Source: Chlorophyllum brunneum
Taxonomy: Eukaryota > Basidiomycota > Agaricomycetes > Agaricales > Agaricaceae
Assembly (NCBI GenBank): GCA_963576785.1
Contig: OY756146.1
Location: 124,001-188,000 of the forward strand
Direction: 5' to 3'
Length of the DNA: 64,000 nucleotides
The position numbers and the translations under genes were made by a program. Below are positions 1 to 56,312 of this stretch, one piece after another. Positions within the stretch are counted from its first letter, which is position 1, and every line of letters begins with the position of its first letter. The notes under the pieces are model-generated. The model did not search any database, had not been told where the DNA came from, and saw only the letters and a program-made list of their open reading frames with translations.

Positions 1-1780
1 TGTTGTGGTTTTTGGAAGTATTCTAGGTTCTTGTGATTGGTCCAGATTTTGAATGGTTCATTGGCGTCAAGTAGGTATTATCTCCAGGTTTTTATTGCTT
101 CTTGGATGGCTAGTAGTTCTTTGTCATAGATCTGATAGTTTCATTCTGCAGGTGTCATTGTTCTTGAGTGGAATGCAATCGGGTGCCAGTGTTCTTTTTG
201 TTTCTGTGATAGTATTGCTCCTATTCCATAGCCTGATGTGTCTACTTCCACTCTGTATTGTCCCTTGTCTTGTGGCATTGCTAATACTAGTTTGCTTGTG
301 ACCTTTTCCTTGATTCTTTTGAAGGCTTGTTGCTGTCATTCTGTCCATACCCATTGACTGTCTTTCTTCTCAACTCGTGTAAAGGGGCTGCTATGTTGCT
401 GAAGTTGTGTATGAATTGTTGGTAGAAGTTTGCAAAGCCTAGGAATTTCTTAACATCTTTCAGGGATTTGGGTGTTGGCCACTCTTTTACTGCTTTCATC
501 TTCTCCTCCTCCATTTTAACGCTGCCTTGTCCAACCACAAATCCCAATATTGGTATCTCCTTCGCATCGAATAAGCACTTTGACCTTTTGAAATACAGCT
601 GGTGTTTTGCTGTGATGTCAAGGAATTGTTTTATTCTGTCTTCAAGTTCCTGTTGTGTGGTTCCTGGAATGACAAAGTCATCCATGTAGTTGACAACTGC
701 CCCTTTGTGTAGCATCTTTTGGAAGACTGTGTTCATCATCCTTTGGAATATTGCTGGTGAGTTGCTCATTCCAAAAAATATGACTGTTGGTTCAAATAAT
801 CCATTGTTTGTTACAAACACTGCTTTCCATTTGTCACCTTCTCTGATCCAGATGTTGTTGTATCCCCAAATAATGTCAAGCTTGTTAAAGACTTTTGTAT
901 CCTTGAGTCTGTCAATAACTTCACTTATCAGCGGAAGTGGCATTTTGTCTTTAATTGTGTGTTTGTTTAGTTTTTTGTAGTCTTGTACTAGTCACTTGGT
1001 TCTGTCCTTCTTGGGTATGAAGAAGCATGGGGTTGCATAAGGGGATTGTGATGGCTGAATTTGTCCTGAGGCAATATTCTCATCAAGGAATTTCTGTAGT
1101 TCTTGTTTTTCCAATATTGTCATTGGGTAGACTTTGGACTGTAGTACCAGTGGTGCATTTTCTGTCAGGTTTATCTCATGATCCCATCTCATGTACTCGG
1201 GTAGTTTGTCAAAGTTCTTCTTGTTGAACAGGTGCATGTATTGCTGTAGGTATGTTGGTAGGTCTTCTGGGTTGGTCTGGTCCGTTTTCTTTTCCTCCAT
1301 GTGTTCTTTTATTGTGCGTATTCTTTTGTTGAACCATATGTCATTGTGGTGTGTGGTACAATCCTTCAGGCATCTATTGAAGTGTATTATGTTGTTTGTC
1401 CAGTCAATTTCCAGGTTATGTTTGACTAGCCAGTCATGTCCGAGATATAGGTCTGTGCTCTCTAGTTGTGTTACCATTTCTTCGATTTCTTCCATGTGTT
1501 TACCATTGCTTAATACCAGTTGTGCCATGTCTGTTATTTTTCCTTTCTTATTTTCAGTTCCATTGGCATTGATTACTCATATTAGGGTTTTGAGAGGTCT
1601 GGTTGTAATATGTTCTTCTTCTACTACTCTCTGTGCTATACACATATGGGTACATCCTGAGTCTACCAGTGTGGTGATCTGTTTAGGTCTCTTTATTGTT
1701 CTGATTATTGAATTGAGGAGAAGTTTGCATATCAAGTTCCTTTTCTATGCAATCACATATCATTTATTATAAAGTAAAAC
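1..1780 (-). pseudogene. Gypsy pol remnant (protease, RT, start of RNase H)
   Basis: Reads protease (DSGCTH, near 1660), RT N-terminus (992-1528), and RT palm with NYMDDFV (287-943), then shifts frame at about 350 just before the RNase H connection. The two main open parts share one frame and are separated by a TGA at 992-994, where copy 2 has a CGC arginine codon. Another TGA near 1575 precedes the conserved VINA stretch. The polymerase would copy the element's RNA inside virus-like particles, but this copy is inactive. The RNase H region is cut by the window edge. Family assignment is firm; the individual lesions are read from comparison with copy 2 only. Confidence 0.88.
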
Positions 1781-1815
1781 AGGAGTTCTAGGTTTATTGG
1801 CTTGCAGGTTTGTGC

Positions 1816-2342
1816 CTACTCAGAGCCTTCAGCAAAATCCTCCTTTGCCTCTTCTTCTTGCTCTGTTTCCTCAGTAACTTCTCTGATGTGCGCTTTCTTC
1901 AGTACTTTACAATTCATCAAGATGTGGCCCTACTTGCCACAATTATAGCACATTATTTTGGTGTATGTGACCTTCATCTTCTTGTGGCAATATTTGGCAA
2001 TATGCCTGTATAGGTTGCAGTTGAAACATTTCGGTTTGCCATTCTGATCAGTGTCTGCCCTCTGTCTACCAATCTCCATTGGTTGTCCTCCACCTCCATA
2101 TGTGACTCCTGTGCTTGTTCTGATGTCTCCTCAGGTGATGTCTGCCATTTTGTATCCTTGTCCTACTGCAAGGATTATGTTCCTCCATTTGTTGTATATG
2201 TCTGGAATTGAGGTTGATGGATAGCCTACAATAGTTTGGATAATGTCTGCTCTGGTGTGTTATTTGAGGAGGAATATGGTGTGAGCATTGTCTATTCCTG
2301 CTTGGGTCTTCAATGCTTTGAACCCTATTAAGAAGTCCAAGG
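1816..2342 (-). pseudogene. Gypsy gag remnant with zinc knuckle
   Basis: C-terminal half of gag, collinear with 51700-52240 of copy 2. It holds the nucleocapsid knuckle region (cysteine codons around 1920-1960) and the same TAG stop directly upstream of the protease frame (1816-1818). At about 2342 it is joined to leader sequence, so the N-terminal half of gag is deleted, by some 0.8 kb relative to copy 2. It lacks the 31-nt insertion present in copy 2 and so shows the uninterrupted gag frame at that point. Not functional. Confidence 0.8.
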
Positions 2343-2354
2343 TGAGTTGAAATG

Positions 2355-2366
2355 ACACTTTACCAA
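2355..2366 (-). other. Self-priming primer-binding site (Gypsy copy 1)
   Basis: On the minus strand TTGGTAAAGTGT lies one base inside the LTR. The plus-strand text at 2451-2462 within the LTR is the same 12-mer, so the minus-strand (sense) LTR holds its complement. The transcript could therefore fold back and prime itself, as known for Tf1/sushi elements. The identical arrangement is kept in copy 2. Confidence 0.7.
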
Positions 2367-2367
2367 A

Positions 2368-2590
2368 TGTTATGACCTTAGTCTAGGACTCAGGTTACAA
2401 GTCTTTGGATAAAGACAAGGAAGTAGAGAGAAGAGAAAGGGATGATACAATTGGTAAAGTGTAAGGAATACATCAAGTATTACTATACTTTATATCTACT
2501 AACTACTGGAACTATGCTGAAGCAGACTGGGAGGGGTATCCTATCTTGGCGGCTTTTTTTAGCATGCCCCGAGTCGGACTGTTATCACGA
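2368..2590 (-). repeat. 5' LTR of Gypsy copy 1 (outer end uncertain)
   Basis: Starts TGTTATGACC like the LTR of copy 2 and stays alignable to the TATA region (about 2490-2500). Beyond that it is no longer similar to the copy 2 LTR. The end given here is the next plausible CA dinucleotide (CACGACA). The real LTR may stop near 2510, with the rest belonging to the neighbouring repeat. Confidence 0.55.
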
Positions 2591-2599
2591 CATTCCCCT

Positions 2600-2994
2600 T
2601 CTTATAATGCCCTATCTCCAGTAGTGGCTTAGGTAATCCTCCCAAGTTAGGCCCCGGCATTAGGGCACCACCACCTTTGGCCAATATTGGACTTGGGCGA
2701 TGCACACAGCTGGGTCACACCATGACAGTGTGACGTCACTATGTGACTTGCTATGTGGCTGGGTGTGACAACTCCCATGCTAGCCTGTGATAGCACCAAA
2801 CAATGCCAAACAGGACCACACAACCTAATCCGGTGTTACCTGGGAATATTGCTAAGCAACCATGCCTCGTGCACTGGTACTTCCCATGGTTGAGAATAAA
2901 TCCTCCCCACAGGTTTCAAACCCAGGACCTTCTAGCCAAGCAGCCTGGTAGGAATTAAGCCTACACCCAAACCACTTGACCATTAGGCCGACCC
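2600..2994 (-). repeat. tRNA-derived SINE-like repeat
   Basis: Read on the minus strand from about 2994, the sequence begins like a tRNA. An A-box-like TGGTCAAGTGG lies at 2972-2982 and a B-box-like GGTTTGAAACC at 2912-2922, about 50 nt apart. The B box differs from the consensus by TTCG to TTTG, fitting CpG decay. About 300 nt of non-coding body follow, with two adjacent perfect hairpins at 2714-2734 and 2735-2747. No protein frame of note. The 3' end and any TSD are not recognisable, so this is a candidate SINE and not a proven one. Confidence 0.45.
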
Positions 2995-3897
2995 ATACAC
3001 TCTGGCCAGGGACACTCCCTGGCTGTGTGTTGTCTTCTGTTGGAGTAGTTCAGGGGTCGTCCTGACCGTTCCCTCACTTTCTGGTCCATTCTGTCATCGG
3101 CGAAATGGTCCATTCATCAGGAGGTGCATTTATTTGCCACTGACCTACAGGTCGCCGCTGGACATTGTCCAGTGATGTCTATTGATTCACTGCATAAACT
3201 CAATGTAGCAACTGTTCAAAAGGCCTGGAAAGTCACTTTCTAGGACTCCTCTTATCACGGTTCAAACTTCCTTGCTTTCAAGGATAGTAAGAACAAGGTT
3301 CTACAGCCAACGTACCTCCATGGGGGTTCCTGGCTTCCTTCCTTTCCCTCTCAGTCCATCGCAACGAGAGCGAATCATGCCATTCTTGGGTATGCTCCAA
3401 CCGGTGAGTATCACTCCTGGTTTCATCCTCTAGAGCCTATTGGCTGCGAGTGTGGGGCTCCTCTGCACTCATATCTTGTGCTCTTGTCTTCTGTACAAGA
3501 GACGTCATGGCCTGCCGGTCTCCCTTGACCAGCTGGTTAGTTTCCTTAAGCGTAATCCTTTGGTGTTTGTGTTTAGAACCAACACACTGCTTGCGGAGGT
3601 TGGATAACGCAGCGCGACCCCTGCTAGCTTCCCACATCTCCAACGTGTGTAGAATTTAATTGTGAATTGATGCATACTCTCCTTAGGGAGGGGAGGCTAG
3701 GGGTCGCTTGTATATCTGGTCTAGGATTCGCGCATCCATGCATGTTTCCATGACCATTTACCCAGACCATCTGTTGGTGGTCTAGTTTGGCCAGGGGAGA
3801 GCCAATCTTCAAATACCTTCCTTTTGTAGACTACATGTGGGTTGCAATCATGCACCACCTTAAACATGTTGATTTAAAAAAAAAAAAAAAAAAAAAA
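2991..3897 (+). mobile_element. LINE A, 5'-truncated copy with poly(A)
   Basis: Carries the last part of ORF2 (late RNase H through the C-terminal zinc knuckle, with an 8-9 base loss near 3460 that destroys the second part of the knuckle spacing), the family A 3' UTR with the conserved AGACC...GGTCT hairpin, and a 22-nt poly(A) at 3876-3897. Many CpG sites of young copies are TpG or CpA here, so it is old. No TSD is visible: the left flank is the SINE-like repeat and the right flank is an inverted LINE A piece. Confidence 0.9.
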
Positions 3898-4388
3898 GAA
3901 ACTGCCGCAGCAGTTCCCAAAGCCATACAAATGGCGAATAGTTCAGCATCTGGGGCTGTAACCTTGCCAGCTGGGTGATGCATTGCACAAAGCAAACATG
4001 TCCCCCTATAAACGTGGGCAGCCTAAACTGCCTGGAAGTCCCCAATCAGTGGTAGACTCACATCTGTCACCATGTAGATAACCTGTCTATCCTCCCAATA
4101 CCCACGAAGGGTATCATTGAGCAAATCCACCTGATGACCCACAGGGTTTCCACTGAGCAAGGCATCATATGTCTTGTAAGTCACCTGGACTGCTATGCAG
4201 CCCAGGAGATGAGAACCTGGAGACACTTCGAGTGCAAATGGCTTGAACATCTCCGTTAAATCTGGCAAACAAGAGTTTGCCTCTGTGACTGGCCCTTTGA
4301 CCTTGACTGCCTAAGCGGGGGTCATGAGAGTGATCGACCTGGGGTGTGGAACACAGCCCCCTATATACTGATGCCCCATGACAGAGAG
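3898..4388 (-). mobile_element. LINE A fragment, inverted (RNase H region)
   Basis: Reverse complement of the family A ORF2 segment between the RT thumb and mid RNase H, including the tether before RNase H and the ATDAS-type catalytic strand region. It abuts the poly(A) of the previous copy on the left and a plus-strand ORF1 fragment on the right without TSDs. It is broken in all frames (short open pieces only). Confidence 0.82.
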
Positions 4389-4731
4389 CCAAGACATGGA
4401 TCTCAAAGGCTGTCCCTCAGGGAACTATTTTTACAGTTGGCCTCCCTCAGTCAAAGTCCTACCTCAAGGTCATCGATGTTCCCTACTTCAGGATTGGCAA
4501 AACTCGCTGGTCCTCATTCGAGATCGAGCAGATCATAAAGCGCACAGCATTTTCTGATCTGTTCACGTTAACGGGACCCCCCCATATTACGAGGAACTCC
4601 AAGGCATCTGATACCACCACAGTGTACTTCAATATTCACAACTCTCAGAAAGGTCAACGGGCAAACCTCCTCCTCAGGAAGTCGCTCCACATTGGTGGAT
4701 ATGTCTGTCCTATCAGGCCATCTGCAGCCTC
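4389..4731 (+). pseudogene. LINE ORF1 (gag-like) fragment
   Basis: Central ORF1 segment, matching residues that in the long copy at 34190-36154 precede the first zinc knuckle (region around 35440-35780). It starts in the conserved WISKAVPQG-like stretch and stops just before the CCHC array, where the poly(T) of an inverted LINE B begins. Several frame lesions. Only a relic. Confidence 0.8.
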
Positions 4732-6249
4732 TTTTTTTTTTTTTTTGGATCATGGCCTAAGGCCGATTTATTACGTGGCGCTCGAACACAGCCCGCAGCC
4801 GGAATACAAACAAGTAAACAAGCGGGTATCTACGGAGAAAGTGGTAACTACGCCCTACCAAGCAAAAGTGCCGTTGCCCAAAACCAACGGTAGGAGGAAT
4901 TGCGTCCTACTCCCGAGCCCAGAGGGCGAGGGGAGTGGACGCCAGAGGAGGCGAGTGGGCAGGGAGGTCCCCCAACCAGCGACCCAGTCCGAAGACCAGG
5001 CCCGGTCAGTAGGTGTTAATTCACTGTAAATGCCCGGCGGTGGAGACGCACCCAGTTACTAGCCCAGCTAAGCCCCAACCCCCCTTTACTAAGACCCAGT
5101 CCCCCAGCCACGGTCACCCTTGCCAGAGTAATTGACCACACCATTTGTGTGGCTATCGGCATCTTCACCACACCTAGTCGCTGTAGGGTCCAGGTCCATT
5201 CATCGGTCATTGGAACTGTCGCCAGGTCTTCGCCAGGGGTCACCAGTGCCGGACAATAACCCACCTACCCTAAGCCAGTTATCCAATTCCCTGGGGAACG
5301 GATGGGAAGGCGAACGCCTGGGGGTTCACTTTCAAGAACTTGACAAGGGCACCCGGCGTAGCAGGGTACCCCCGAGAGGAATCAAACCGACTGCAGTTGG
5401 TAAGAATATGCACATGGGACTCGAAAGGAGCCCCGCATGGACACCAAAATGGTTCGTCCTGGAAGAATCGAGACCTATAGGCCCCGATAGGCGCATGGTT
5501 GAGTATAACCCTACACATGCGGGTGGACAGCGAGTTGGACTCTGCTGCGGTGGAAGGCAGCCACGAACCTCCATGGAGGTAGGTGGGCTGGAGGGGCTTA
5601 CCGTTACGCCCTTCGAGAGCCATGAACTGGCTACCCGAGTAAGTAGGATCCTGGAATCGAGTGATCCAGGCATCCTGGCAGGATTTGACGGCCCTCTGAC
5701 GAAGGGAGTCAAGGGAGGTCTGCGGATGGGAACCCGTGGCGATCTGAAGTTCGGTGCAGTATTGGTGTACGGTACCGTGAATGGCCCACTTCTCCGAAGA
5801 GAAGGTGTGCCAGATGTGAATGGAGCGTTCAGGGTGGCCCTCGAACCACTCCATAAGAGCATTACACACGGCAAGCGAATGAGCTTGACCTGAGTGAACG
5901 GAAGGGTCCACCGCTCTCCTAGCCGAGCCCAGGGAGTCAGTGAACAAAACAATGGAGTCGCAATCAGGGAGGCTGACGGCCTTCCCAATTGCGATCCGGA
6001 TAGCGTACAGCTCAGCGTCAGGAGCCGTCACTCGACCTGCCGTGTGTCTCGTCTGAAAGACACACCGGCCCGACTGGTAGATATGGGCAGCAGAAACTGC
6101 CTGGAATTCCCCCTGCAGCGGTAGACTAGCGTCTGTGGCCACAGTGAGAACCCGAGGGTTGGCATTGGCACGGTCCAGGGTGCTGTTCAGATGCCTTATA
6201 TGCACAGCTCTCTCGTCGCATGAGCGAGGAGAGTCATGGAAGGAGATCT
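4732..6249 (-). mobile_element. LINE B, 5'-truncated copy (RNase H to poly(A))
   Basis: Starts on the left with poly(T) 4732-4746 followed by the family B terminal hairpin GGCCTAAGGCC, then the B 3' UTR and the ORF2 C-terminus (stop at 5279). The C-terminal knuckle CPCG...H...C and RNase H are open. Its 5' end at about 6249 is fused directly to a family A endonuclease segment, so the open frame continues to 6772. No TSD is seen. Confidence 0.85.
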
Positions 6250-14106: not shown

Positions 14107-15964
14107 TAAGGAAGTTCGAACCGCGATAAGAGGAGTCCTGGAAAGTAACTTTCCAGGCCTTCTGAATAGCTGCTACGTTGAATTTACGCAGCGAGTCAAT
14201 TGATGTCGCTGGACGGCGTCCAGCGGCAACCTGTAGATCGGTGGCAAATGCATGCACACCATGATGAATGGACCATTTCGCCGATGACGGAACGGACAAG
14301 AAAGTGAGGGAGCGGTCAGGACAGTTCCTGAACCACTCCAATAAGAGATGACACACAGCCAGGGAGTGTCCCTGGCCAGAGTGTACGGACGGGTCGAGAG
14401 CTCGCTTGGCAGAGCCAATCGAGTCTGTGAAGACCGCAATGTGTACAGCCTCAGAGACCGCCGCAGCAGTTCCCAAGGCCATACGAATGGCGAAAAGTTC
14501 AGCATCTGGGGCTGTAACCTTGCCAGCTGGGTGACGCGTTGCATGAAGCAAGCGTGTCCCCCTATAAACATGGGCAGCAGAAACTGCCTGGAAGTCTCCA
14601 ACCAATGGCAGACTTGCGTCCGTCGCTGCGTAGACAACCTGTCTATCCTCCCGATACCGATGAAGGGTATCGTTGAGCAAATCCACCTGACGGCCTGCAG
14701 GGTTTCCACCGAGCGAGGCGTCATACGTTTTAAAAGTCACCTGGGCCATGAAGCGGTCCATGAGACGATAACCTGGCGACGCCTCGAGCGCAAACGGCTC
14801 GAACATCTCCGTTAGATCTGGCAAGCAAGAGTTTGCCTCCGTGACCGGCCCCTTGACCTTACCCGCCTGGGCGGGGGTCATGAGAGCAATCGATCTGGGG
14901 TGTGGAAGACAACCCCCTATATACTGACGCCCCATAACGGAACGAACAGGGTGATGATCAGAAAGCGTAGCCACCCTGTGGACGGCACGGGCAGCTAACT
15001 TCCTGAGATGAAGGTGGAGGCCAGCCAAGGCCTCAGCTCCTCTGGTAGGGCTGGTGCAGAATGCACCAGTGATCCACAATGCAGCTTTGCGCTGCATAGT
15101 GTTAAGTTGCTTCAGAAGGGTCTTGTTACGGGCACCTTCATAGAACCAGAGTCGAAACCCATATGTAGCAATGGGCACTACGCATGAGCGGTACAGAGTC
15201 CTCTTCTGAGAAGGAAGAAGGCCTCATGAAGAGTTACCAAGCATGCCCATGGCCTTGACCGTGGACAGAGACTTAGTAGCGTAATGCCGAATGTGCTCTT
15301 TAAACGTAAGAGCGCGATCGAAGAAAAAGCCCAAGTACCTCCAATGGGTCTTAGGGCGAAGCGGAGTATTGCCGGTATGGGGAGCATACCCCAGATCCAG
15401 CGGTGGGTTGTCGTCTCCCCGTTTACGGGAGAAGTGAAAAACTTCGGACTTGTCGTGCTCGACGGCAAGCCCAAATGAAGTAGTCAGGCGATAAATAATC
15501 TGGTATGCCTGCCTGAGGCACACCAAATTAGGTTCCCAAGTCTTGGCTTGGGCGATGACAAGGCCATCGTCGACGTATGAGAGCAAGGTGCTCCCAAGGG
15601 CGATTGCCTCCCTATCATAAAGCTTCATGAAGGGAGCAAGATAGAGGCCGGAGAGGACAGGAGAGAGCGAAGAGCCCTGACCGACCCCAACGTCCGCCTG
15701 CCTGAGATCAGACTTGTGGTCCCCCCACGCATATTGCATAGAGCAGCCAACCAAATAAGAGGCAAAGAATCTGCCCACACAGGGGTCGAATCCTTGCTTC
15801 CGTAAAATCGCCAACAACATAGAGTGGTTGAGCGAAGGAAAGAACTGAGCGATGTCAAATGCGACAACGCTAGTCTTGAGGCCCTTGGCCCACCCCGCGC
15901 GAACGATGTGAGTTAGGAGCATCCCAGCATTGTCAGTGGACCTCTGACGGATACCACCGAGCTG
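14107..15964 (-). pseudogene. LINE A ORF2, C-terminal two thirds (RT palm to late RNase H)
   Basis: Minus-strand family A from the QLGGIRQRS segment of RT to late RNase H. Open pieces are 15224-15964 (RT with FDIAQFFPSLNH, SYVDDGLVIAQ at about 15560-15590) and 14107-15178 (thumb, RNase H with ATDASLPL near 14600). A TGA at about 15224 (after LGNSS) breaks it where other copies read RG, again CGA to TGA. It continues at 17788 beyond the inserted chimeric element. Confidence 0.87.
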
Positions 15965-16122
15965 CATCGCTCCTTGACTTGTTACCACCACCATCACTTT
16001 TTCCACTTCCTTTCCCCATCGCACCTTTCATCTCCTGGGCTCTCTCTCATGGGCCTGGGTCTTTTCTGAGCCTTCGCTGGCTGTAGGGGGGCGGTCCGTG
16101 TGGCAACGTTACTTGGTCGATG

Positions 16123-16257
16123 GGTGGCGCGCCCTTGGTAAAGGCGATTAAAGGTGGGTATATCCCCACCGTTCATCTGACTGACGCCTATACGCACAGA
16201 TCGACGAGGCGGCCCCTTGGTAAAGGGTCTTAAAGGCTGGGATACTGGCCACCTCGC
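16123..16257 (+). repeat. Two related hairpin units in the chimeric element
   Basis: Units at about 16123-16170 and 16206-16257 share CCCTTGGTAAAGG followed by a TTAAAGG segment and a GGG-ATA-like segment. In each, CC(C)TT and AAAGG flank a GGT(A) loop; then a second stem forms (GGTGGG/CCCACC in unit 1, GGC/GCC in unit 2), and outer bases also pair (GAGG/CCTC in unit 2). Sequence differs while pairing is kept, suggesting selected RNA structure. Confidence 0.55.
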
Positions 16258-16450
16258 TCGCTTGCGCTCGCTGGGTCGCCAGTGGTGGCGGCCCTTCTAT
16301 TAATCCAATGGAGTTGCAGTCCCGTATAGGGTTTGCATGGCGGTTTTAACCCCTGCTGCAGCTCAAGTCCGGCTAGCATCTCGAGGCTGGGTTATCCTGG
16401 CCGACGACGGACGTCCGGGCCTACCCCTAATCGTGCTTGCATGTCGGTGG

Positions 16451-16989
16451 GGAGCGTGCTGAAAAAAGCCGCCCCATCGCACCCGAAAGGGACCGAAAGG
16501 ATAAGGGACGGTAATAGGGGGTATGGAGGTGAAAACAAGCCGACCGAAAGGACAGGACAGGCCACCCCCCACCAGTGTCGCCATGCCTTCGGGAACCCCT
16601 CTGGGGGTAGCGCCTGGTCGTTAGTAGGGATACGCCAAACTCCAGGACACCGGGCGGGTGCGGATTGACACAGGGAAACTCAGGTTGATTGGCGCTCGTC
16701 CCGTGGATTGCTTAGTAACCCGTTCCGCGGGTTGCTTATGTGATCCAATGTGAACACCACCCTGGTAGCGCCCCCTGCGAGACGGAGATCCCCGCCAGTA
16801 TTAGCACGCGGATCCGCGCCCAAAGACAAGTCGCCTCCTTTGGGGGGTAGGGCATAGCGAAAGCGGCTGCGGGGGAACGGGAAGCTAGTCCAGGGGTCGC
16901 GCCTTGGAGGTACGCCTTCGTGGCCTCTGCCTGCCCAACTAGTGGACCGTAGCGGGCTGTTTACTGGGAGCGTGCTGAAAAAAGCCGCC
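16451..16989 (+). repeat. Direct repeat of a GTGCTG-A6-GCCGCC motif
   Basis: A 23-nt motif containing GTGCTGAAAAAAGCCGCC occurs at 16451-16473 and again at 16967-16989, 516 bp apart, with unrelated flanks. A close variant (GCATGCT, seven A, GCCGCC) is on the minus strand at 2548-2570. Function unknown. Confidence 0.6.
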
Positions 16990-17623
16990 CGGTTACCGAG
17001 AAGGAGCGGCCCGGCTCGAGAGGTCTAGATCCTCCGTCGATGGGTCTCCGCCAACAACGGAGTGTACCTGTTTAAGTTGATACCACGTAAGTAGTCTGGA
17101 TTTGGGGTGGCGATGTGCGCAGTCATGCGGTGAGATCCCGTCCGTGCACCGTATAGGAAGGATGCCTCAAGCGAACGGCAGGCCGGTCCTCAGGGATACC
17201 GTGCTCTCTCAGTAGCGGGGTGTCTGCCCAAGCTAAAGGCTTTACCTCTTAGGAGGGAGGGGCAAAGTCCCCGCAACATGGCTGGATGCGACACCAATAT
17301 GGGAGCCTGGGAACATGCTGGGCGTTCTACGGGCACATATCGTCTCAAGACCCCCGTCTCTGGGCTGCTAGGAGTTTGCCTGCAAGGGACTCCGTGTACG
17401 GGTCTTAAGCGCAATCCTTTTGCGTTCGCGTTTAAGGCCAACATACCGCTTGCGGGAGTTGGATAACGCGGCGCGACCCCTGCTAGCTTCCCACGTCTCC
17501 GACGTGTGTAGAAGTTAATTGCGAATTGACGCATACTCTCTTTAGGGAGGGGAGGCAAGGGGTCGCTCTACATATCTGGTCTAGGATTCACGCGTCCGTG
17601 CGTGTTCCCGCGACCGTTCACCC

Positions 17624-17643
17624 AGACCGCCTGTCGGCGGTCT
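17624..17643 (+). promoter_or_regulatory. Conserved 3' UTR hairpin of LINE A
   Basis: AGACCGCC-TGTC-GGCGGTCT forms a perfect 8-bp stem about 110 nt before the tail. It is present in every A 3' UTR (for example 12384-12390 region, 26060-26080, 40175-40195) and in decayed copies the pairing is largely kept through G-U pairs (near 3764 and 43768). Probable recognition element for the LINE RT; inference. Confidence 0.6.
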
Positions 17644-17787
17644 AGTTCGGCCAGGGGAGAGCCTATCTTCGAATACCATTACCTTTGTAGCCTACATGTC
17701 ACAGTAGATACAGGTGGACTGCGATCGTGCACCACCTTAAACATGATGATTTAAAAAAAAAAAAAAAAAAAAGATACCACCGAGCTG

Positions 17788-19314
17788 ATTTGGATGAAAA
17801 ACTCCATGCTTGACAGAGTCAAACTGGAGGCGATTTGAGACCATCTTCTCGATGAGTTTACTGAAGGTGTTCAAGAGCACAATGGGTCTGAACGCCTTGG
17901 GTGTTGAGTAGGACAGCTTGCCCGGCTTCGGAATGATAACCGACAAGCTTTCCTTAAAGTGAGACGGCCAATGACCCACACTCATGCAGGCATTGGCTAT
18001 CCCGATGAATAGCCGAAGGACATCGGGGTCCTCGGTGATCTCCTTGAGGTGGGTCCATGTTACATGGTCCAGCCCCGGGGCGGACGCACCCGAGCATGCG
18101 CTAAGGGCGTCTATCAGCTCTAAGGCTGAGAATTGGACCCACTCCCGCGCCATAAGGCTTGGCAGTGGATCAAGAACAGAAATATCTACAGCTCGGCCAG
18201 AAGCCGAGTTGTAGGTATTGTGGAGTGCGTCCCAGAGATCCGGGAGCGCGTGACACGGCTCTCCATTGTACTGGATAGCCTCGCAGGGTGGAAGCTTCCG
18301 CTTTTGGACCCATTCCATAAGGTCCCACGGTTGCTTGTTTGTAGAAGCAATCTCCTCGATGCAAGCATCAAAGAAGTTGCGCTTTGCGTGCTTCTTAGCA
18401 TGTCTAAAGTTAGAGTAGTCATTGTGAGAACGAGTTTCACGATATCTCCCGAAAGTTTCGCGGCATTCCTGGTTCCACCAGGGTTTAGAGCGGCGAGTGA
18501 TCATGATGTCCACCTCTTTGCCACCATCACGCAGCAGGGTTTTCCTGTGAGTCTCCACTATCGTGGGAGTGACTGGAAGCGTCAGAACCAGTGGAACGTG
18601 GTCTGACGGACCCCTAAGGGAGTAATCCAACCTGGGTCTATGGGAAATAGACAGGTCTGATGGAACAAATGCAAGATCAATGACTGATGGTCGAAGATCC
18701 TCATTATGCGGAATGTGAGTAGGCCCAGGCTCGACCGGAAGGGCGAGGTCTAGACCAATGTCTGTCCCGATGGAGATCAGAGACTGCGAGGTACCTGAGT
18801 GGGAGCCATAATTAGGGTCCCACAACTCAGAATGGCAATTGAAATTGTCACCCATGTAGATATGCTTGGGCAATGTGGCAGCTCGGTCCGCCAGGAACCG
18901 AATTGCCGTGTGCTCCGAATCAGAGTAAACGTTCATGAGATTCAGGGTCTCACCCCCCAAGAAGAGGGAGAGAACCATGATGTCACGGTGATTGATGAGA
19001 TCCGTCCGATAGGACAGTCTCAGAGAAGACAACCGGTTATGGACAAATGTCATAACCCGTGGGTCAGAGCCAGGCTCTGGGGCCCGAACCATGCACAGCC
19101 ACTCGGGGTGCTTGGGGGCGCCAATAATGTCGTCCCCCTCAACAGAGGTCGTGGTGGGGGCGGATCTGATGAACCCCCAGGGAGGTTCTTGAATAAAGAG
19201 AACATCAAAAAGATCTTTGAGGTCCTCAAGTAGCGTGTCCAATAAATCATAATTTTTATTCAGATTCTGTTGGTACAATCGGATACTTCGTAATTCTAAT
19301 GGCCGCCTATTCAT
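17788..19314 (-). pseudogene. LINE A ORF2, N-terminal part (endonuclease)
   Basis: Starts at ATG 19314, overlapping the ORF1 stop within ATGAATAG. Residues 1-230 are an APE endonuclease: QNLNKN near residue 15, QEPPW near 43, FNCHSELW near 158, SDHVPL near 238. After KEV it jumps to DIMITRRSKPWW, a loss of about 45 codons that keeps the frame. It then reads the pre-RT linker and the start of RT (IIPKPGK, RPIVLLNTF) to the HPNQLGGI point where the chimeric element is inserted. Confidence 0.9.
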
Positions 19315-19957
19315 TGGCAAGCTGTAGAGTACGAGGGTTGGTGAGGGGAGATCGCCGCCGAAGACAGTTGTTACTCACCTTGCGATAGAACTTCTTGATT
19401 TTCTCGGGTTCAAACCGAGCATCAAAAAATTTGCACTTCTTCGAGGTCGTGTGGTGGGGACCTCGGCAGTTGAGACAACGTGGCGTATGAGGACAAGGCT
19501 CATCTGCCGGTGTAGGAGGGATGGGGGGCTGCACGCTGGAGTTACCCTTGCAGCGCCCACAGAGAGTTCGGTGATGTTCCTCGCGATGAGGACCACCACA
19601 GGTCGGACATTTCAAGGCCTGTGCCTTGCAGAATTGAATGGGGTGACCCCAGTGGAAGCAACGCTTGCACAGAGACACCCCCGGGGAGGCTGCGGACGGC
19701 CTAATAGGACAGGTGTATCCACCGATATGGAGCGATTTCCTGAGGAGGAGGTTCGCCCGTTGACCCTTCTGAGAGTCGTGAATATTGAAGTACACCATGG
19801 CGGTATCAGACGCCTCGGAGTTCCTCGAAATGCGGGGGGGTCCCGTTAATGTGAAGAGGTCAGAAAACGCGGAGCGTTTCATGATCTGTTCGATCTCAAA
19901 CGAGGACCAGCGAGTCTCGCCGATCCTGAAGAAAGGGACATCGATGACCTTGAGATA

Positions 19958-22200: not shown

Positions 22201-23875
22201 ATGATTCAAAAAAAAAAAAAAAAAAAAAAAGATGACCTTGAGATAGGACTTCGACTGAGGGAGGCCAACTGTAAAAACAGTTCCCTGAGGGACGGCCTTC
22301 GAGATCCACAACCTAGTGACCTCCAGGTTGGCAGGGGTGGGGACAGCGTTGGTGCGCAGAGCAAAACCCCCATACTCGGCAGAGGTAGACTCTACTCGAA
22401 TGTGGAGGCGTGAGTCCACGAAGCCACGGTTAACCATGGTTTCGAGGTGGAACGAGGAGACTTCGGGGGTAGCCTCGAAATCAACGATCAACTGGCGCCG
22501 TGAGGGGCCAGCGGTGGTCATCCTGGGCTTCTTCTTAGAAGCTTTGGACTTAGGAGGAGAGGCCTGCTCGCCCATGGCGAGGATCCTGTCCAGAGGAAGC
22601 GAGGGGAACATTTGTGCCAATTGCACAACAGTCCCCGATGCTGTAGTCACCTTCCCCTTTCCTTTCGGTTGGGGGACAGGCTCCTTGGCCACAGCAGAGA
22701 ACGTTCTCTTGTTCCCTGGTTTAGCGGCTGGAGTAGAAGGAGCAGGAGGAGCCACCGGCTTGCGCTGGTAGGTCCCCTTGCCCGCAAGAGGAGACGGTCC
22801 CACCCCTCCGGGGCGAGGACCACTCAGAGCACCCTCTGGACCAGGCATCGGGACGTCTGGGTCCTGGGGGGGGGATCCAGCCTGGGGAGGCCGGGGAGTA
22901 ACTCGAGCTCCTGGTACTGGAGGAGTACGGGGAGCTGGAGGCTGAGGAGTGGGAGCGGCGGGGGCCAGTCCCATAGATGCGCTCAGGACGGTACCAACGG
23001 TAGGCATCCCGAAGCCGAGCTCGACAGTGGACCATCCACTGTCGTCAATAGCCTTGCACAGCTGAATAATCGATCGTGCAAGGGGGTACACAGACTTACC
23101 CGGGAGGGTAGTCCAGTCGATGTTCTCCACCGTCTTGTTAAGGAAGGTGGAGATGATATCCAGCGAGTCCGAGGCCGCTTCGAGGTCCCCTGCAACACTT
23201 TCGACAGTGTTCAGAAGATGGCAGGAGTACGGGGACGAGGAGCTGGAGGAGGAGGGCGCAGGGCTAGGTGCGCTGGGGGTAGGGCCCCGAGGGGGAGTCA
23301 TGGGATCTTCGTCGAACCCTCCTAACTCGCCAAAATCCTCCACAGCGGGCCCAGGCGATGGCGAGGTTGCGCGTGAGGGGTTGCGTGAACCCCTCCTGCC
23401 GGTGGGAGTTCGGAGAAGGTCAGGCGGCCCTCTAGAACGACTAGATTTGCGCTGACAACGGATAGGTCCTGTTGAGGACCTGCGGATGGTGTCGAGAGTG
23501 TCGGGGGACTCAGGGACTTGGCGCCCGGTCCCCCCGCCGAATGGGTGGTGCGAAGACATGCGGAATGGCCGCGGGTGTATTCCTAGTAAGCTAGGACACC
23601 GAAACAAGTGAGTACAGCGGATAAGACGATGAGGTCGATTTGTTTACGCTTGTTTACTGGTGGAAGTACCAAATCAAGAAGCGCGGCGCCAGTTGATCAT
23701 TGACTTCGAGGTTACCCCCGAAGTCTCCTCTTTCCACCTCGAGACCATGGTTAACCGTGGTTTTGTGGATTCACGCCTTCATATCCGAGTAGAGTCTACC
23801 TCTGCTGAGTATGGGGGTTTTGCTCTGCGTACCAATGCTGTCCCCACCCCTGCTGACCTTGAGGTCGCCAGGACG

Positions 23876-34063: not shown

Positions 34064-34189
34064 CATCGCTTCTTTATCCAGCACTTCCACCAGTAAACAA
34101 GTGTAAACAAAGTTGCTCATCATCTCTACCATTGTACTCGCTTGCTCTGGTGTCCTAGCTCCCTAGGAACATGCCCGCGGCCATTCCGC

Positions 34190-36154
34190 ATGTCATCGCA
34201 ACCCCCATTCAGCGGGGGGACCAGGCGCCAAGTTCCCGAGTCCCCCGACACCCTCGACACCATCTGCAGGTCCTCAACAGGACCCATCCGTCATCAGTGT
34301 GAATCTAGTTGTACTAGAGGACCGCCCGACATTCTTCGAACTCCCACTGGTAGGAGGGGTTCACACAACCCTTCACGCGCAACCTTACCATCGCCTGGGC
34401 CTGCTGTGGAGGATTTTGGCGAGTTAGGAGGGTTTGACGAAGATCCCATGACTCCCCCTCAGGGCCCTACCCCCAATGGACCTAGCCCTGCACCCTCCTC
34501 CTCCAGCTCCTCGTCCCCGTACTCCTGTCATCTTCTGAACACTGTCGATAGTGTTGCAGGGGACCTTGAAGCGGCCTCGGACTCGCTGGATCTCATCTCC
34601 ATGTTCCTTAATAAGACGGTGGAGAATATTGACTGGACTACCCTCCCGGGTAATTCAGTATACCCCCTCGCGCGATTGATTATTCGATTGTGCAAGGCTG
34701 TCGATGACAGTAGGTGGTCCACTGTTGAACTTGGCTTCGGGATGCCTACCGTTGGCACCATCCTGGCAGCGTCTATGGGCCTGGCCCCCGCCTCTCCCGC
34801 TCCCCCTCCTCCTGCCCCTTGTACTCCTCCAGTACCAAGGGCTCGAGCTGTCCCCTGGCCTCCCCTAGCTGGGCCTCCCCCCCAGGATCCAGATGTTCCA
34901 ATGCCTGGTCCAAAGGGTGCTCTGAGTGGTCCTCGCCCCATGGGGGTTGGACCTTCTCCTCTCGTGGGCAAGAGAACCTACCAGTACAAGCCAGTAGCTC
35001 CTCCTGCTCCTTCTACTCCGGCTGCCAAACCAGGGAACAAGAGAATGTTCTCTGCGGTGGCTAAGGAGCCTGTCCCCCAACCGAAAGGGAAGGGGAAGGC
35101 AACTACGGCATCGGGGACTGTTGTGCAGCTTGCACAAATGTTCCCTTCACTTCCTCCGGACAGGATTCTCGCCATGGGCGAGCAAGCCTCTCCTCCCAAA
35201 TCCAAAGCCGCTAAGAAGAGGCCCAGGATGACCACCGCTGGCCCCTCACGGCGCCAGTTGATCGTTGACTTCGAGGCTACCCCCGAAGTCTCCTCCTTCC
35301 ACCTCAAGACCATGGTTAACCATGGTTTCGTGGACTCACACCTTCATATCCGAGTAGAGTCTACCTCTGCCGAGTATGGGGGTTTCGCTCTGCATACTAA
35401 TGCTGTTCCCACCTCTGCCAACCTGGAGGTTGCCAGGACGTGGATCTCGAAGGCCATCCCTCAGGGAACTGTGTTTACAGTTGGCCTCCCTCAGTCGAAG
35501 TCCTATCTTAAGGTCATCGACATCCCCTACTTCAGGATCGGCAAGACTTGCTGGTCCTCATTCGAGATCGAACAGATCATGAAGCGCACAGCGTTTTCTG
35601 ATCTCTTCATGTTAACGGGACCCCCCCATATTTCGAGGAACTCCGAGGCATCTGATACCGCCACGGTGTACTTCAATATTCACGACTCTCAGAAGGGTCA
35701 GCAGGCAAACCTCCTCCTCAGGAAGTCACTCCATATTGGTGGATATGCCTGTCCTATCAGGCCATCCGCAGCCTCTCCGGGGGTGTCTCTGTGCAAGCGT
35801 TGCTTCCACTGGGGCCACGCCATTCAATTCTGCAAGGCGCAGGCCTTGAAATGCCTGACCTGTGGTGGTCCTCATTGCGAGGAGCATCACCGAACTCTCT
35901 ATGGGCGCTGCAAGGGTAACTGCAGCGTGCAGCCCCCCATCCCTCCTATACCGGCAGATGAGCCTTGTCCTCATACGCCACATTGTCTCAACTGCCAAGG
36001 TCCCCACCATACGACCTCGAAGAAGTGTAAATTCTTTGATGCTCGGTTTGAACCCGAGAAAATCAAGAAATTCTATTACAAGGTGAGTAACAACCGTCTT
36101 CGATGGCGATCTCCCCTCACCAACCCTTGTAATCTACAGCTTGCCAATGAATAG
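34190..36154 (+). CDS. LINE A ORF1 protein (gag-like, zinc knuckles)
   Basis: 654 codons, intact. The start ATG at 34190 (MSSQPPF) matches the position used in the other copies; an upstream TTG extension is in frame. Residues 1-130: Pro/Ser-rich, low complexity. About 110-190: predicted helical segment (LLNTVDSVAGDLEAASDSLDL). 200-340: Pro-rich and basic (KPKGKGK-like). 360-520: conserved folded region. About 540-630: three knuckles, CKRCFHWGH-x4-C, CLTCGGPH, CLNCQGPH. Such proteins bind LINE RNA and chaperone nucleic acids during target-primed reverse transcription. TAG at 36152-36154 overlaps the ORF2 start (ATG 36147). Second knuckle carries CPT to CLT, otherwise typical. Confidence 0.9.
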   Translation: MSSQPPFSGGTRRQVPESPDTLDTICRSSTGPIRHQCESSCTRGPPDILRTPTGRRGSHNPSRATLPSPGPAVEDFGELGGFDEDPMTPPQGPTPNGPSPAPSSSSSSSPYSCHLLNTVDSVAGDLEAASDSLDLISMFLNKTVENIDWTTLPGNSVYPLARLIIRLCKAVDDSRWSTVELGFGMPTVGTILAASMGLAPASPAPPPPAPCTPPVPRARAVPWPPLAGPPPQDPDVPMPGPKGALSGPRPMGVGPSPLVGKRTYQYKPVAPPAPSTPAAKPGNKRMFSAVAKEPVPQPKGKGKATTASGTVVQLAQMFPSLPPDRILAMGEQASPPKSKAAKKRPRMTTAGPSRRQLIVDFEATPEVSSFHLKTMVNHGFVDSHLHIRVESTSAEYGGFALHTNAVPTSANLEVARTWISKAIPQGTVFTVGLPQSKSYLKVIDIPYFRIGKTCWSSFEIEQIMKRTAFSDLFMLTGPPHISRNSEASDTATVYFNIHDSQKGQQANLLLRKSLHIGGYACPIRPSAASPGVSLCKRCFHWGHAIQFCKAQALKCLTCGGPHCEEHHRTLYGRCKGNCSVQPPIPPIPADEPCPHTPHCLNCQGPHHTTSKKCKFFDARFEPEKIKKFYYKVSNNRLRWRSPLTNPCNLQLANE

Positions 36155-39100
36155 GCGACCTCTAGAACTACATAGTATCCGATTGTACCAACAGAATCTT
36201 AACAAGAATTATGATTTATTGGACACATTACTTGAGGACCTCAAAGATCACTTTGATGTTCTCTTTATTCAGGAACCTCCCTGGCGGTTCATTAGATCCG
36301 CTCCCTCCACAACTTCTGTCGAGGGAGGTGACATTGTTGGCACCCCCAAGCACCCCGAGTGGCTGTGCATGGTCCAGGCCCCAGAGCCCGGCTCTGACCC
36401 ACAGGTTATGACATTTGTTCAAAACCGGTTGGCTTCTCTGAGACCGTCCTATCGGACAGATCTCATCAATCACTGTGACATCATGGTTCTCTCCCTATTT
36501 TTGGGGGGTGAGACCCTGAATCTCATGAATGTCTACTCTGATTCAGAGTACACTGCGATTCAGTTCCTTTCGGACCGTGCTGCTACATTGCCCAAGCATA
36601 TCTACATGGGTGGCAATTTCAATTGCCATTCTGAGTTGTGGGACCCTAATTATGGCTCCCACTCAGGCACCTCGCAGTCTCTGATCTCCATCGGGACAGA
36701 TATCGGGCTAGACCTCGCCCTTCCGGTCGAGCCTGGGCCTACTCATATTCCACACAATGAGGATCTTCAACCTTTGGTCATCGATCTGTCATTTGTTCCA
36801 TCAAACCTATCTATCTCCCATAGGCCTAGGTTGGATTACTCCCTTAGGGGTCCATCAGACCACATTCCACTGGTCTTGATGCTTCCAGTCACTCCCACGT
36901 TAGTGGAGACTCACAGGAGAACCCTGCTGCATGATGGTGGCAAGGAGGTAGCACTCTTCCTCACTGATGTTATCTGGGACCTCCGTAAAGTAGCTAGACT
37001 TCCGGAACCTACTACTACTGATGAGGTTGAAGCTGCGGTTCATGCTGTGGCAGAGGCCTTTTCCACTGCGTGGGAGGCCCATGCAGTGGGCATCATGATT
37101 ACTTGCCGCTCTAAACCCTGGTGGAACCAGGAATGCCGCATATCCTTCGGGAGATATTGTGAGACTCGTTCTCACGATGACTACTCTAATTTTAGGCATG
37201 CTAAGAAGCGCACTAAATGCAACTTCTTTGATGCTCGCATTGAGGAGATTACTTCTACTAACAAGCGACTGTGGAACCTTATGGAATGGGTCCAAAAGCG
37301 GAAGCTTCCACCCTGCGAGGCTATCCAGTACAATGGAGAGCCATGTCATGCGCTCCCGGATCTCTGGGACACACTCCACAATACCTACAACTCGGCCTCT
37401 GGCCGAGCTGTGGATATTTCTGTTCTTGATCCACTGCCAAGCCTTCTGGCTAGGGAGTGGGTCCATTTTTCAGCCTTAAAGCTGATGGACACCCTGAGCG
37501 CATGCTCGGGTGTGTCCGCCCCAGGGCTGGACCATGTAACGTGGACCCACCTCAAAGAGATTGCCAAAGACCCCAATGTCCTTCGGCTATTCATCGGAAT
37601 AGCGAATGCCTGCATGCATGTGGGTCATTGGCTGTCCCATTTCAAGAAAAGCTTGTCGGTTATCATACCAAAGCTGGGCAAGCCGTCCTATTCAATGCCC
37701 AAGGCGTTCAGGCCCATAGTGCTCCTGAACACCTTTGGTAAACTCATTAAGAAAATGATCTCGAATCGCCTCCAGTTTGACTCTGTCAAACATGGAGTTT
37801 TTCATCCAAATCAGCTCAGTGGTATCTGTCAGAGGTCCACTGATGATGCTGGGATGCTCCTAACCCACATCGTTCGTGCGGGGTGGGCCAAGGGCCTCAA
37901 GACTAGCATTGTCGCTTTTGACATTGCTCAGTTCTTTCCTTCGCTCAACCACAATATGTTGTTGGCTATTCTGCGGAAGCAAGGATTCAACCCCTGTGTG
38001 GGGAGATTCTTTGCCTCTTACTTAGTTGGCCGCTCTACGCAGTATGCGTGGGGAGACCATAAGTCTGATTTCAGACAGGCGGACATTGGGGTAGGTCAGG
38101 GCTCTTCACTCTCTCCTGTCCTCTCCGGCCTCTATCTTGCCCCCTTCATGAAGCTTTATGATAGGGAGGCGACCGCCCTTGGGAGTACCTTACTCTCATA
38201 TGTCGACGATGGCCTTGCCATTGCCCAAGCTAAAACTTGGGAACCTAATTTGGTGTGCCTCAAGCAGGCATACCAAATTATATATCGCTTGACTACTTCG
38301 TTTGGGCTTGCCGTCGAGCACGACAAGTCCGAAGTTTTTCATTTCTCCCGTAAATGGGGAGACGACAACCCACCACTGGATTTGGGGTATGCTCCCCATA
38401 CCGGCGACACTCCGTTATGCCCTAAGACCCACTGGAGGTACTTGGGTTTTTTCTTTGATTGTGTTCTTACGTTCAAAGAGCACATTCAACATTACACTAC
38501 CAAGTCTCTGTCCATGGTTAAGGCCATGGGCCATGCTTGGTAACTCTTCTCGAGGCCTTCTTCCTAATCAGAAGAGGACTCTTTATCACTCATGTGTGGT
38601 GCCTATTGCCACGTATGGGTTTCGTTTGTGGTTTTACGAGGGTGCCCGTAACAAGGCCCTTCTGAAACAACTTAACACTATGCAGCGGAAAGCTGCATTG
38701 TGGTCACTGGTGCATTCCACACCAGCCCCACCGGAGGGGCTGAGACCTTGGCTGGCCTTATCCCTATCCATCTCCATCTCAAGAAGCTGGCTACCCCTGC
38801 CATCCATAGGGTTGCCACACTCTCTGAGAATCACCCTGTTTGCTCTGTTATGGAGCATCAGTACATAGGGGCATGTGTTCCACACCCCAGATCAATCACT
38901 CTCATGACTCCTGCTCAGGTGGTCAAGGTCAAGGGGCCGGTCACAGAGGCAGACTCTTGTTTGCCAGAATTAACGGAGGCGTTTGAGCCATTTGCACTCG
39001 AAGCGTCACCAGGTTCTCGTCTCCTGGACTGCTATGCGGCCCAGGTGACTTACAGGACATATGATGCCTTGCTCGGTGGAAACCCCGTGGGTTGTCAGGT

Positions 39101-40018
39101 GGATTTGCTCAATGATACCCTTTGTGGGTATCGTGGGGATAGACAGGTTGTCTATGCAGCGACAGACGCAAGTCTGCTGCTGGTTGGGGACTTCCAGGCA
39201 GTTTCTGCTGCCCATGTTTATAGGGGGACATGTTTGCTTCGTGCAACACGTCACCTAGCTGGCAAGGTTACAGCCCTGGATGCTGAACTTTTCGCCATTC
39301 GTATGGCTTTGGGAACTGCTGCGGCAGTCTCTGAGGCAAACATATCGCAGTCTTTACAGACTCAATTGGTTCGGCCAAGCGAGCTCTTGACCCATCCGTA
39401 CACTCTGGTCAGGGACATTCCCTGGCTGTGTGTCGTCTCTTGTTGGAGTGGTTCAGGAATCATCCTGACTGCTCCCTCACTTTCTGGTCCGTTCCATCAT
39501 CGGCGAAGTGGTCCATTCATCATGGTGTGCATGTATTTGCCACCAATCTACAAGTTGCCACTGGATGCCATTCAGCGACGTCTATTGATTCGCTGTGCAA
39601 ACTAAGTGTAGTGACTGTTCAGAAGGCCTGGAAAGTTGCTTTCCAGGACTCCTCCTATCGCGGTTCTAACTTCCTTGCTCTCAAGGATAGTAAGAACAAG
39701 GTTCTACAGCCAACGTACCTCCATGGGGGTTCCTGGCTTCCTTCCTTTCCCTCTCAGTCCATTGCGACAAGGGCGAATCGTGCCATTCTCGGGCACACTC
39801 CAACCAGTGAGTATCGCTCCCGGTTTCATCCTCTAGAGCCTATTGGCTGCAAGTGTGGGGCTCCTTTGGAGACTCGCACTCATATCTTGTGCTCTTGTCC
39901 TTTGTACAAGAGACGTCGTGGCCTGCTGGTCTCTATTGGCCAGCTGGTATCTTTCCTTAAGCATAATCCCTCTGCATTTGCATTTAAGACCAACACACCG
40001 CTTGCAGGAGTTGGATAA
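36147..40018 (+). pseudogene. LINE A ORF2 (EN-RT-RNase H), frameshifted
   Basis: Open from ATG 36147 to 38543: APE endonuclease (QEPPW near 36274, GGNFNCHSELW near 36610 with Asp changed to Asn in the usual GDFN, SDHIPL near 36857) and most of RT (FDIAQFFPSLNH, YVDDGLAIAQ near 38200). An extra C at about 38530 shifts the frame at KAMG; a base missing at about 38704 and a change near 39335 shift it again. RNase H (ATDASLLLV near 39163) and the knuckle CKCG...H...C (39848-39898) are recognisable to TAA 40018. The GDFN-to-GNFN change would hit an endonuclease catalytic position. Inactive. Confidence 0.88.
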
Positions 40019-40322
40019 CACAACGCGACCCCTGCTAGCTTGCCATGTTTCTGACGTGTGTAGAAGTTAATTGCAAATTGATGCATACTCTCCTTAGGGA
40101 GGGGAGGCTAGGGGTCGCTTGTTTATCTGGCCTAGGATTCGCGCATCTGTGCATGTTTCCATGGCCGTCCACCCAGACCGCCTGTCGGCGGTCTAGTTTG
40201 GCCAGGGGAGAGCCTATCTTTGTAAAATACTCTTTGTAGCCTACATGTCACAGTAGATACAGGTGGACTGTGTTCGCGCACCACCTTAAACATGACGATT
40301 TAAAAAAAAAAAAAAAAAAAAA

Positions 40323-40715
40323 GGCTGTAGGACCTTGTTCTTACTATCCTTGAGGGCAAGGAAGTTAGAACCATAATAAGAGTCTTGGAAAGTAACTTTC
40401 CAAGCCTTCTGAATGGCTGCTACGTTGAGTTTATGCAGTAAATCAATAGACATCACTGGACGACGTCCAGCAGCAACCTGTAGGTCAGTGGCAAATCAAT
40501 ACACCTCCTGATAAATGGACCATTTCACTGAAGACAGAACAGACCAGAATGTGAGGGAACGGTCAGGACAATCCCTGAACCACTCCAGCAAAAGACGACA
40601 AACAGCCAGGGAGTGTCCCTGGCCAGAATGTACAGATGGGTCAAGAGCTTGCTTGGCAGAACCAATTGAGTCTGTAACAACTGCAATATGTACAGCCTCA
40701 GAAACTGCTGCAGTC
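40323..40715 (-). pseudogene. LINE A fragment, inverted (RNase H to C-terminal region)
   Basis: Reverse complement of ORF2 from the ALKDSKNKV segment to the AAVSEAV segment of RNase H. Starts right after the poly(A) of the full-length copy and meets plus-strand endonuclease sequence at 40716 (AETAA joined to SWWNQEC-like). Broken frames. Confidence 0.78.
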
Positions 40716-56154: not shown

Positions 56155-56312
56155 AACAAGCCAACCAAAAGAACAGGCCACCCCTTACCAGTGTACCATG
56201 CCTTCAGGAACCTCTCTGGGGGTAGCACCTGGTTATTAGTAGAAATACACCATACTTCAGGATACTGGGTAGGTTTGGGTTGACTTGGGGAAACTCAGGT
56301 TGATTGGTGTTA
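56155..56312 (+). repeat. Decayed fragment of the chimeric element
   Basis: Alignable by eye to 16535-16690 throughout, including the AACCCCTCTGGGGGT hairpin region and the GGGAAACTCAGGTTGATTGG end. Nearly every CpG in the 16.5-kb copy is TpG or CpA here. Shows the body sequence is a dispersed repeat and not unique to one insertion. Its ends in this place are ragged. Confidence 0.75.

Follow-up and report, generated by a model that had tools for sequence, protein, structure and literature searches.

The window, the whole stretch of 64,000 nucleotides of Chlorophyllum brunneum DNA that was analysed here, carries at positions 15965 to 17772 a complete insertion that consists of a 1438-nt body, a 350-nt tail of a LINE referred to here as LINE A, and 20 A residues, enclosed by target site duplications (TSDs). 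The two TSD copies (15950 to 15964 on the left and 17773 to 17787 on the right, plus strand) read GATACCACCGAGCTG and are identical at 15 of 15 positions, as the initial annotation of the window had recorded when it described a complete insertion with a perfect 15-bp TSD. The body (15965 to 17402, plus strand) is copied from a non-coding RNA, about 1.43 kb long, whose 5' end, CATCGCT, and 3' end, GTACGGG, are fixed. A blastn comparison of the element with the window located an exact internal repeat of 25 nt (16450 to 16474 and 16966 to 16990, plus strand). The LINE A 3' tail that follows the body (17403 to 17752, plus strand) begins at about position 5891 of a 6259-nt LINE A reference and leads into the 20-nt poly(A) (17753 to 17772, plus strand). 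This reference is the LINE A copy at 34064 to 40323 (plus strand), counted from 34065, which starts with CATCGCTTC and has a poly(A) end. The last 370 bp or so of the element, previously assigned to the LINE A tail, are 83-94% identical to six other long tails in the window and 87% identical to a seventh over 170 bp, which upholds that assignment.

The recipient of the insertion is itself an antisense LINE A copy (14108 to 19957, minus strand), delineated by matches to a 6446-nt LINE A reference. In the coordinates of that reference, 3913-5777 lie at 15964-14108, 3187-3928 at 18513-17772 and 1605-3050 at 19957-18512, and the halves flanking the insertion have 16 nt of reference in common. LINE A has a relative, LINE B, with which it is 71-76% identical where the two can be aligned. 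Among the best 120 of 243 relatives of the LINE open reading frame, many of them unnamed, those with a species name belong to the Agaricales (Cyclocybe, Candolleomyces, Psilocybe and others). Matches were also obtained for a peroxidase piece and for two hydrophobin pieces, none of them to a solved structure of near-identical sequence.

The 5' terminus of the body (15965 to 15993, plus strand) had been likened to that of LINE A, and the comparison holds: over these 29 nt the body consensus agrees at 23 positions with the LINE A copy at 45560, at 22 with that at 23686 (minus strand) and at 19 with that at 34064, the next-best 29-nt match to a LINE A 5' end within the body reaching 15. A 17-nt 5' pattern with up to two mismatches was found at the element and at two LINE A starts, against 0.05 occurrences expected by chance. 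Judged from this resemblance, the LINE-like 5' end is likely to reflect a common transcription start with a promoter inside the element, and the first 29 nt would act as the transcription start site. Internal promoter sequence is known in other LINEs.

Copy number and distribution of the body family

The genome searched comprises 38.9 Mb in 14 contigs. With the body as query, at least 44 matches were obtained, and at least 45 with a copy of a second subfamily (in each case 40 of about 155 candidates were scored). Of two core 30-mer patterns, with up to three mismatches allowed, one matched 58 sites, spread over 13 contigs, and the other 78, on 12 of those contigs; their reversed controls matched none. 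The sites are confined to a single region per contig, up to about 310 kb wide (C7), and neither core matched outside those regions at up to three mismatches, a search that a gene more diverged in both cores would escape. The LINE A tails that were scored (40 of 234 candidates) fall in the same regions. These regions holding body copies and LINE A tails, one on each of contigs C1 to C13, may be centromeres. Exact core patterns had no match in viral contigs (two patterns) or in prokaryote genome contigs (one pattern), and a viral or bacterial origin is thus unsupported from there.

The loci examined contained 59 body pieces, 18 of which were left out as they are without the 3' end. The remaining 41 alignment rows correspond to 40 readable copies, since two rows on C2 are the halves of one split copy. 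In 32 copies the body is nearly complete and retains its 5' end, starting at body position 1 to 8; shorter bodies are also present in the family. At C2:3182011-3186977 a chimeric copy is interrupted by a later truncated LINE A that has its own TSD. Within the window, a body fragment of about 160 nt (56150 to 56307, 80% identical) lies inside an otherwise unrelated repeat; the sequence just before it reads like what we take to be the end of a Copia-type polyprotein.

Sequence and structure of the body RNA

The 32 nearly complete bodies comprise a young subfamily A (n = 8, 0.8-3.5% from its consensus), a subfamily B (n = 15), an older decayed group (n = 8) and the copy C6:2661564. Between subfamilies A and B there are 108 substitutions and four indels, each of 1-3 nt, and the older group differs from A by 80 transitions and a single transversion. 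Most departures from the subfamily consensus are C>T or G>A (61 of 71, for instance, in C1:2013808), a bias that suggests methylation- or RIP-like decay of the body copies. Nine of the 32 bodies have their closest relative on their own contig, where 3.1 would be expected (P = 0.006), and one pair on C1 has 17 near-private changes in common, all C>T or G>A and 13 of them at CpG. Such same-contig kinship could result from gene conversion, from parallel decay or from the use of nearby copies as source.

The initial annotation had called the body GC-rich, non-coding and structured. Its GC content is indeed 55-66% in 150-nt steps. Its non-coding nature is likewise confirmed: the longest stop-to-stop frame of the subfamily-A consensus, of 171 codons, is antisense and has no ATG, and 1-nt indels occur between the subfamilies. 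The Rfam comparison that had been envisaged for the body returned no family at gathering score and nothing credible at E values up to 10, where the sole hit, CRISPR-DR9 (E 0.59), fell far below its cut-off. Group I intron and other ribozyme cores likewise had no Rfam match at E up to 10, a search that cores outside the Rfam models would escape.

As for structure, the folding energy of the subfamily-A consensus equalled that of 60 dinucleotide shuffles (MFE z = -0.15) and was dropped as evidence. RNAalifold, given three consensuses and 30 copies, yielded 26 compensatory pair comparisons and 2 broken ones; because that structure is fitted to the same alignment, it was set aside in favour of one predicted from the A consensus alone (299 pairs with probability >0.7). 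Placed on the A structure, B has 5 compensatory changes (expected 0.77, P = 0.0012), which all fall within the final 365 nt, together with 23 one-sided changes that kept the pair (expected 17.1, P = 0.05) and 20 broken pairs (expected 23.5, P = 0.21); the expected values assume random placement and ignore any clustering of changes. With this predicted structure, some RNA-level constraint on the body is weakly supported, and nothing stronger.

A fixed body end joined to variable LINE positions

In 39 of the 40 copies read, the body passes directly into LINE sequence at body position 1438 +/-1 nt, and the body and the 5'-truncated LINE part have the same orientation (39/40 copies). The last body bases read GTACGGG in subfamily A and GTACGCGGG in subfamily B, with a G-to-A change in some copies. 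The partner of the 39 canonical joins is LINE A in 35 cases and LINE B in 4. Counted without gaps along a single reference copy of each family, which is not the true template, these joins fall at 30 positions in LINE A (25 when those no more than 2 nt apart are merged) and at 3 in LINE B, a total of 33 distinct joins (28 merged) over two LINE families; those in LINE A span 1092-5891 of 6259. One copy, C1:1948950, was read by hand: its alignment stops early at a subfamily difference, and LINE A begins 28 nt further on, at 3630. The exception is C11:886943, which joins LINE A 45 nt early, at an internal GGG that is also found in related LINE copies at that place.

TSDs of 14-17 bp surround the whole unit of body, LINE part and poly(A) in 11 of the 32 5'-complete copies, 5 of them perfect; three of these 11 TSDs stop 1-3 nt short of the body start as aligned. 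Among the 21 copies with no TSD, the LINE part is longer than the flank examined in 10, two form a pair with swapped TSDs, and the other nine have neither feature. The search for further copies revealed a family with the same 5' start and with TSDs, as had been foreseen; the shared LINE A tail that had been expected with them gives way to LINE joins that vary. No longer element emerged in which coding sequence regularly separates the body from the LINE.

Five LINE A joins (5588, 5590, 5765, 5769 and 5890) were each used twice. Movement of a whole chimera should produce equal divergence in its body and LINE parts. The identities of the bodies and of the LINE parts are, however, 91.6/82.7% and 92.6/86.4% for the pairs at 5588 and 5590, and 95.7/87.2%, 96.3/89.5% and 92.2/88.3% for those at 5765, 5769 and 5890, and the pairs at 5588 and 5769, for which both TSDs are known, have different ones; these join-sharing pairs thus go back to separate events. 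The copies C11:808569 and C11:805469, which use one LINE B join, are 99.3% alike in their bodies and 98.8% in their LINE parts, and represent either a re-mobilised chimera or a conversion product. The same two copies are inverted relative to each other and their TSDs, GGAGCACAATGGGC and CATTGAGTTTATGC, are exchanged between them, as after an inversion through recombination between inverted copies.

A sequence rule at the join

Join sites were compiled into a set of 28 distinct sites. Thirteen of the 41 rows were not entered: 4 lacked a recognisable canonical end, 1 lacked a LINE match, 1 had a poorly aligned join, 1 had a LINE B join that falls at the reference edge, and 6 repeat a counted site. 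In the LINE reference, C occupies position -3 in 21 of the 28 sites, and pyrimidines occupy -2 in all 28 and -1 in 26; at +1 there is a pyrimidine in 26 of 28 and never a G. The join motif can therefore be written C-Y-Y^Y, with YY before the join in 26/28 sites. When sites within 2 nt were collapsed, YY remained in 21 of 23 against 7.3 expected, and none of 20,000 random sets reached 21. For comparison we used 10 plain 5'-truncated LINE insertions from the same loci, with TSDs of 13-18 bp and at most one mismatch: YY precedes the breakpoint in 4 of 10 of these versus 21 of 23 chimera joins (P = 0.004), and a pyrimidine stands at +1 in 3 of 10 versus 21 of 23 (P = 0.0008). The join sites are non-random and unlike plain 5' truncations.

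The CYY of the motif is complementary to the terminal GGG of the body, and pairing between GGG and CYY may be what picks the join site. In Magnaporthe, 17 of the 18 rows of table 3 in PMC2104539 likewise have YY before the join, the motif given by its authors being GCC^A/U. As reported in the part of PMC8857657 drawn on here, the R2 reverse transcriptase jumps best with a cDNA overhang of 1-2 nt that matches the acceptor end, a rule that is not the same thing as the GGG/CYY complementarity of the present joins; the same source credits pre-ligation for chimeras in its assay.

Formation of the chimeras and source of the body RNA

We propose that, in the course of a new insertion by the LINE machinery, a non-coding RNA of about 1.43 kb is joined in sense to the 3' portion of a LINE RNA. 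The reverse transcriptase would prime at the LINE poly(A) on the nicked target, copy part of the LINE, switch at C-Y-Y^Y to the 3'-terminal GGG of the body RNA and then copy this RNA through to its 5' end. We are confident that the family is one of bipartite LINE chimeras formed during insertion by the LINE machinery, and just as confident that the insertion at 15965-17772 is a member of it.

One possible source of the RNA, which we put at somewhat under even and which is compatible with the proposed mechanism, is a host RNA, present in abundance, whose gene the assembly lacks; the gene could lie, for example, in repeats left unassembled, rDNA among them. Such a source would account for the fixed 3' end and for the existence of lineages A and B, with more compensatory changes between them than expected. 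The 5.8S rRNA had no match among the 39 of 958 candidates scored, so that rDNA may be absent from the assembly. At up to three mismatches the core patterns hit a single region on each contig (58 and 78 sites) and nowhere else, which counts against a host gene, as do the LINE-like first 29 nt, which would be unexpected in a host housekeeping RNA. No LINE-less body copy was encountered among the 40 copies read, with 78 sites of the 3'-domain pattern in the genome, which fits a missing gene as well as an RNA encoded only by the chimeras. The latter leads to a more tentative suggestion, to which we give the lower credence: that the body RNA parasitises LINEs, to which it offers the best landing place. 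The LINE-type start in its first 29 nt would let chimeric copies be transcribed, its 3' end would be re-made by processing, the GGG there would pair with the CYY of LINE RNA much like a natural template-switch oligonucleotide, and the only genes for it would be the chimeric copies themselves.

A rival order of events places the join before reverse transcription. LINE RNA could be cut at CYY^Y, by an endonuclease or by trans-esterification, joined to the GGG of the body and retrotransposed whole; RNA ligation is named as a route to LINE-1 chimeras in the parts of PMC13174262 and PMC8857657 used here, and the difference between join sites and plain truncation sites is what a cleavage and joining rule would give. 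The near-equal similarity of C11:808569 and C11:805469 in both parts, with two TSDs, would also suit one chimera moved again, but this pair could have been homogenised by conversion. Against prior joining stand the five LINE A join-sharing pairs, whose LINE parts are clearly different, and the absence of an Rfam group I intron or ribozyme match to the body at E up to 10. We consider this order of events rather unlikely, and a switch during reverse transcription the probable one, if by no great distance from doubt.

The two remaining readings carry very little weight. In the first, an autonomous LINE would carry the body permanently as its 5' UTR, and the shorter forms would be deletions; C4:2475140, in which LINE B is joined 6154 nt before its 3' end, and C7:1057779, joined to LINE A at 1092, do keep most of the LINE, but three LINE A copies begin with CATCGCTT-like ends and no body, and three LINE B copies (on C7 and C2) have an upstream part of their own, two of them with (C/T)GCTTCTT starts at the end of their mutual match, which makes this highly improbable. 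That the body is the 5' UTR of LINE B in particular was dropped because of this upstream part. The second takes the element for a non-autonomous one, akin to a large SINE, whose 3' tail is LINE A-derived and fixed. SINEs with LINE-like 3' ends are non-coding, and LINE proteins act on them in trans; here the LINE 3' part is inconstant and belongs to the LINE template. Three copies, C8:139965 (the insertion in the window), C6:2661564 and C6:2736556, do have LINE A tail joins no more than 1 nt apart, so that the body-tail join seen in the window does recur twice on C6; with LINE parts only 87-88% alike, though, this is a hot spot. The same body end occurs at 29 other LINE A positions (24 merged) and 3 LINE B positions, and the fixed-tail reading is refuted for the family. 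The initial annotation, which had envisaged a LINE-mobilised element with two LINE-derived ends, was borne out as to a multi-copy, non-coding, LINE-made element with a LINE-like 5' end, and is to be revised as to its tail.

Relation to known LINE chimeras

The initial annotation knew of no described fungal family of this kind, but one exists: MINE of Magnaporthe grisea (Gogvadze et al. 2007, PMC2104539), in which WEIRD, a non-coding RNA of 1113 nt, precedes a 5'-truncated LINE. By its described anatomy, rather than by WEIRD or MGL sequence, the present family is one of bipartite LINE chimeras of the MINE (WEIRD-MGL) kind. According to the sections of PMC2104539 drawn on here, MINE has about 30 copies with TSDs and the same orientation, six joins are used twice, no solo copy of WEIRD was found, and WEIRD is in its authors' view an abundant functional host RNA. 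A full-length RNA with a truncated LINE, common orientation, TSDs, a join motif and the lack of solo copies, here among the 40 copies read, are thus features of both systems. They differ in the length of the RNA (1438 nt in the window copy versus 1113 nt), in the partners (LINE A and LINE B versus MGL and Mg-SINE), in the motif (CYY^Y versus GCC^A/U) and in the host, a mushroom-type fungus as opposed to an ascomycete; unlike MINE, the present family has a LINE-like 5' end, two diverged RNA lineages and one region per contig.

U6/LINE-1 and other mammalian LINE-1 chimeras, as presented in the portion of PMC13174262 consulted, resemble the present copies in that an RNA, for the most part in sense orientation, precedes a truncated LINE and TSDs are present, the U6 part being consistently full-length. 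Their acceptors are known RNAs (U6, U3, 5S, Alu and mRNAs), whereas a single long RNA of no known family serves here. In the literature searched, mostly non-subscription, no MINE-type fusion in a mushroom was among the matches listed, MINE of Magnaporthe being the closest fungal kind. New in the present family are the use of one RNA with two LINE families, the LINE-like 5' end, and a pyrimidine rule complementary to the terminal GGG.

As a second case of the MINE type, with a single long acceptor RNA, and with YY before the join (26/28 sites here and 17/18 rows of the Magnaporthe table) and no solo copy found in both, this family suggests that the choice of acceptor and of site is rule-bound. 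If the RNA is indeed a LINE parasite, WEIRD of Magnaporthe would be a second case of the same strategy. The complementarity between the 3'-terminal GGG and CYY makes the choice of jump site by LINE reverse transcriptases testable in vitro.
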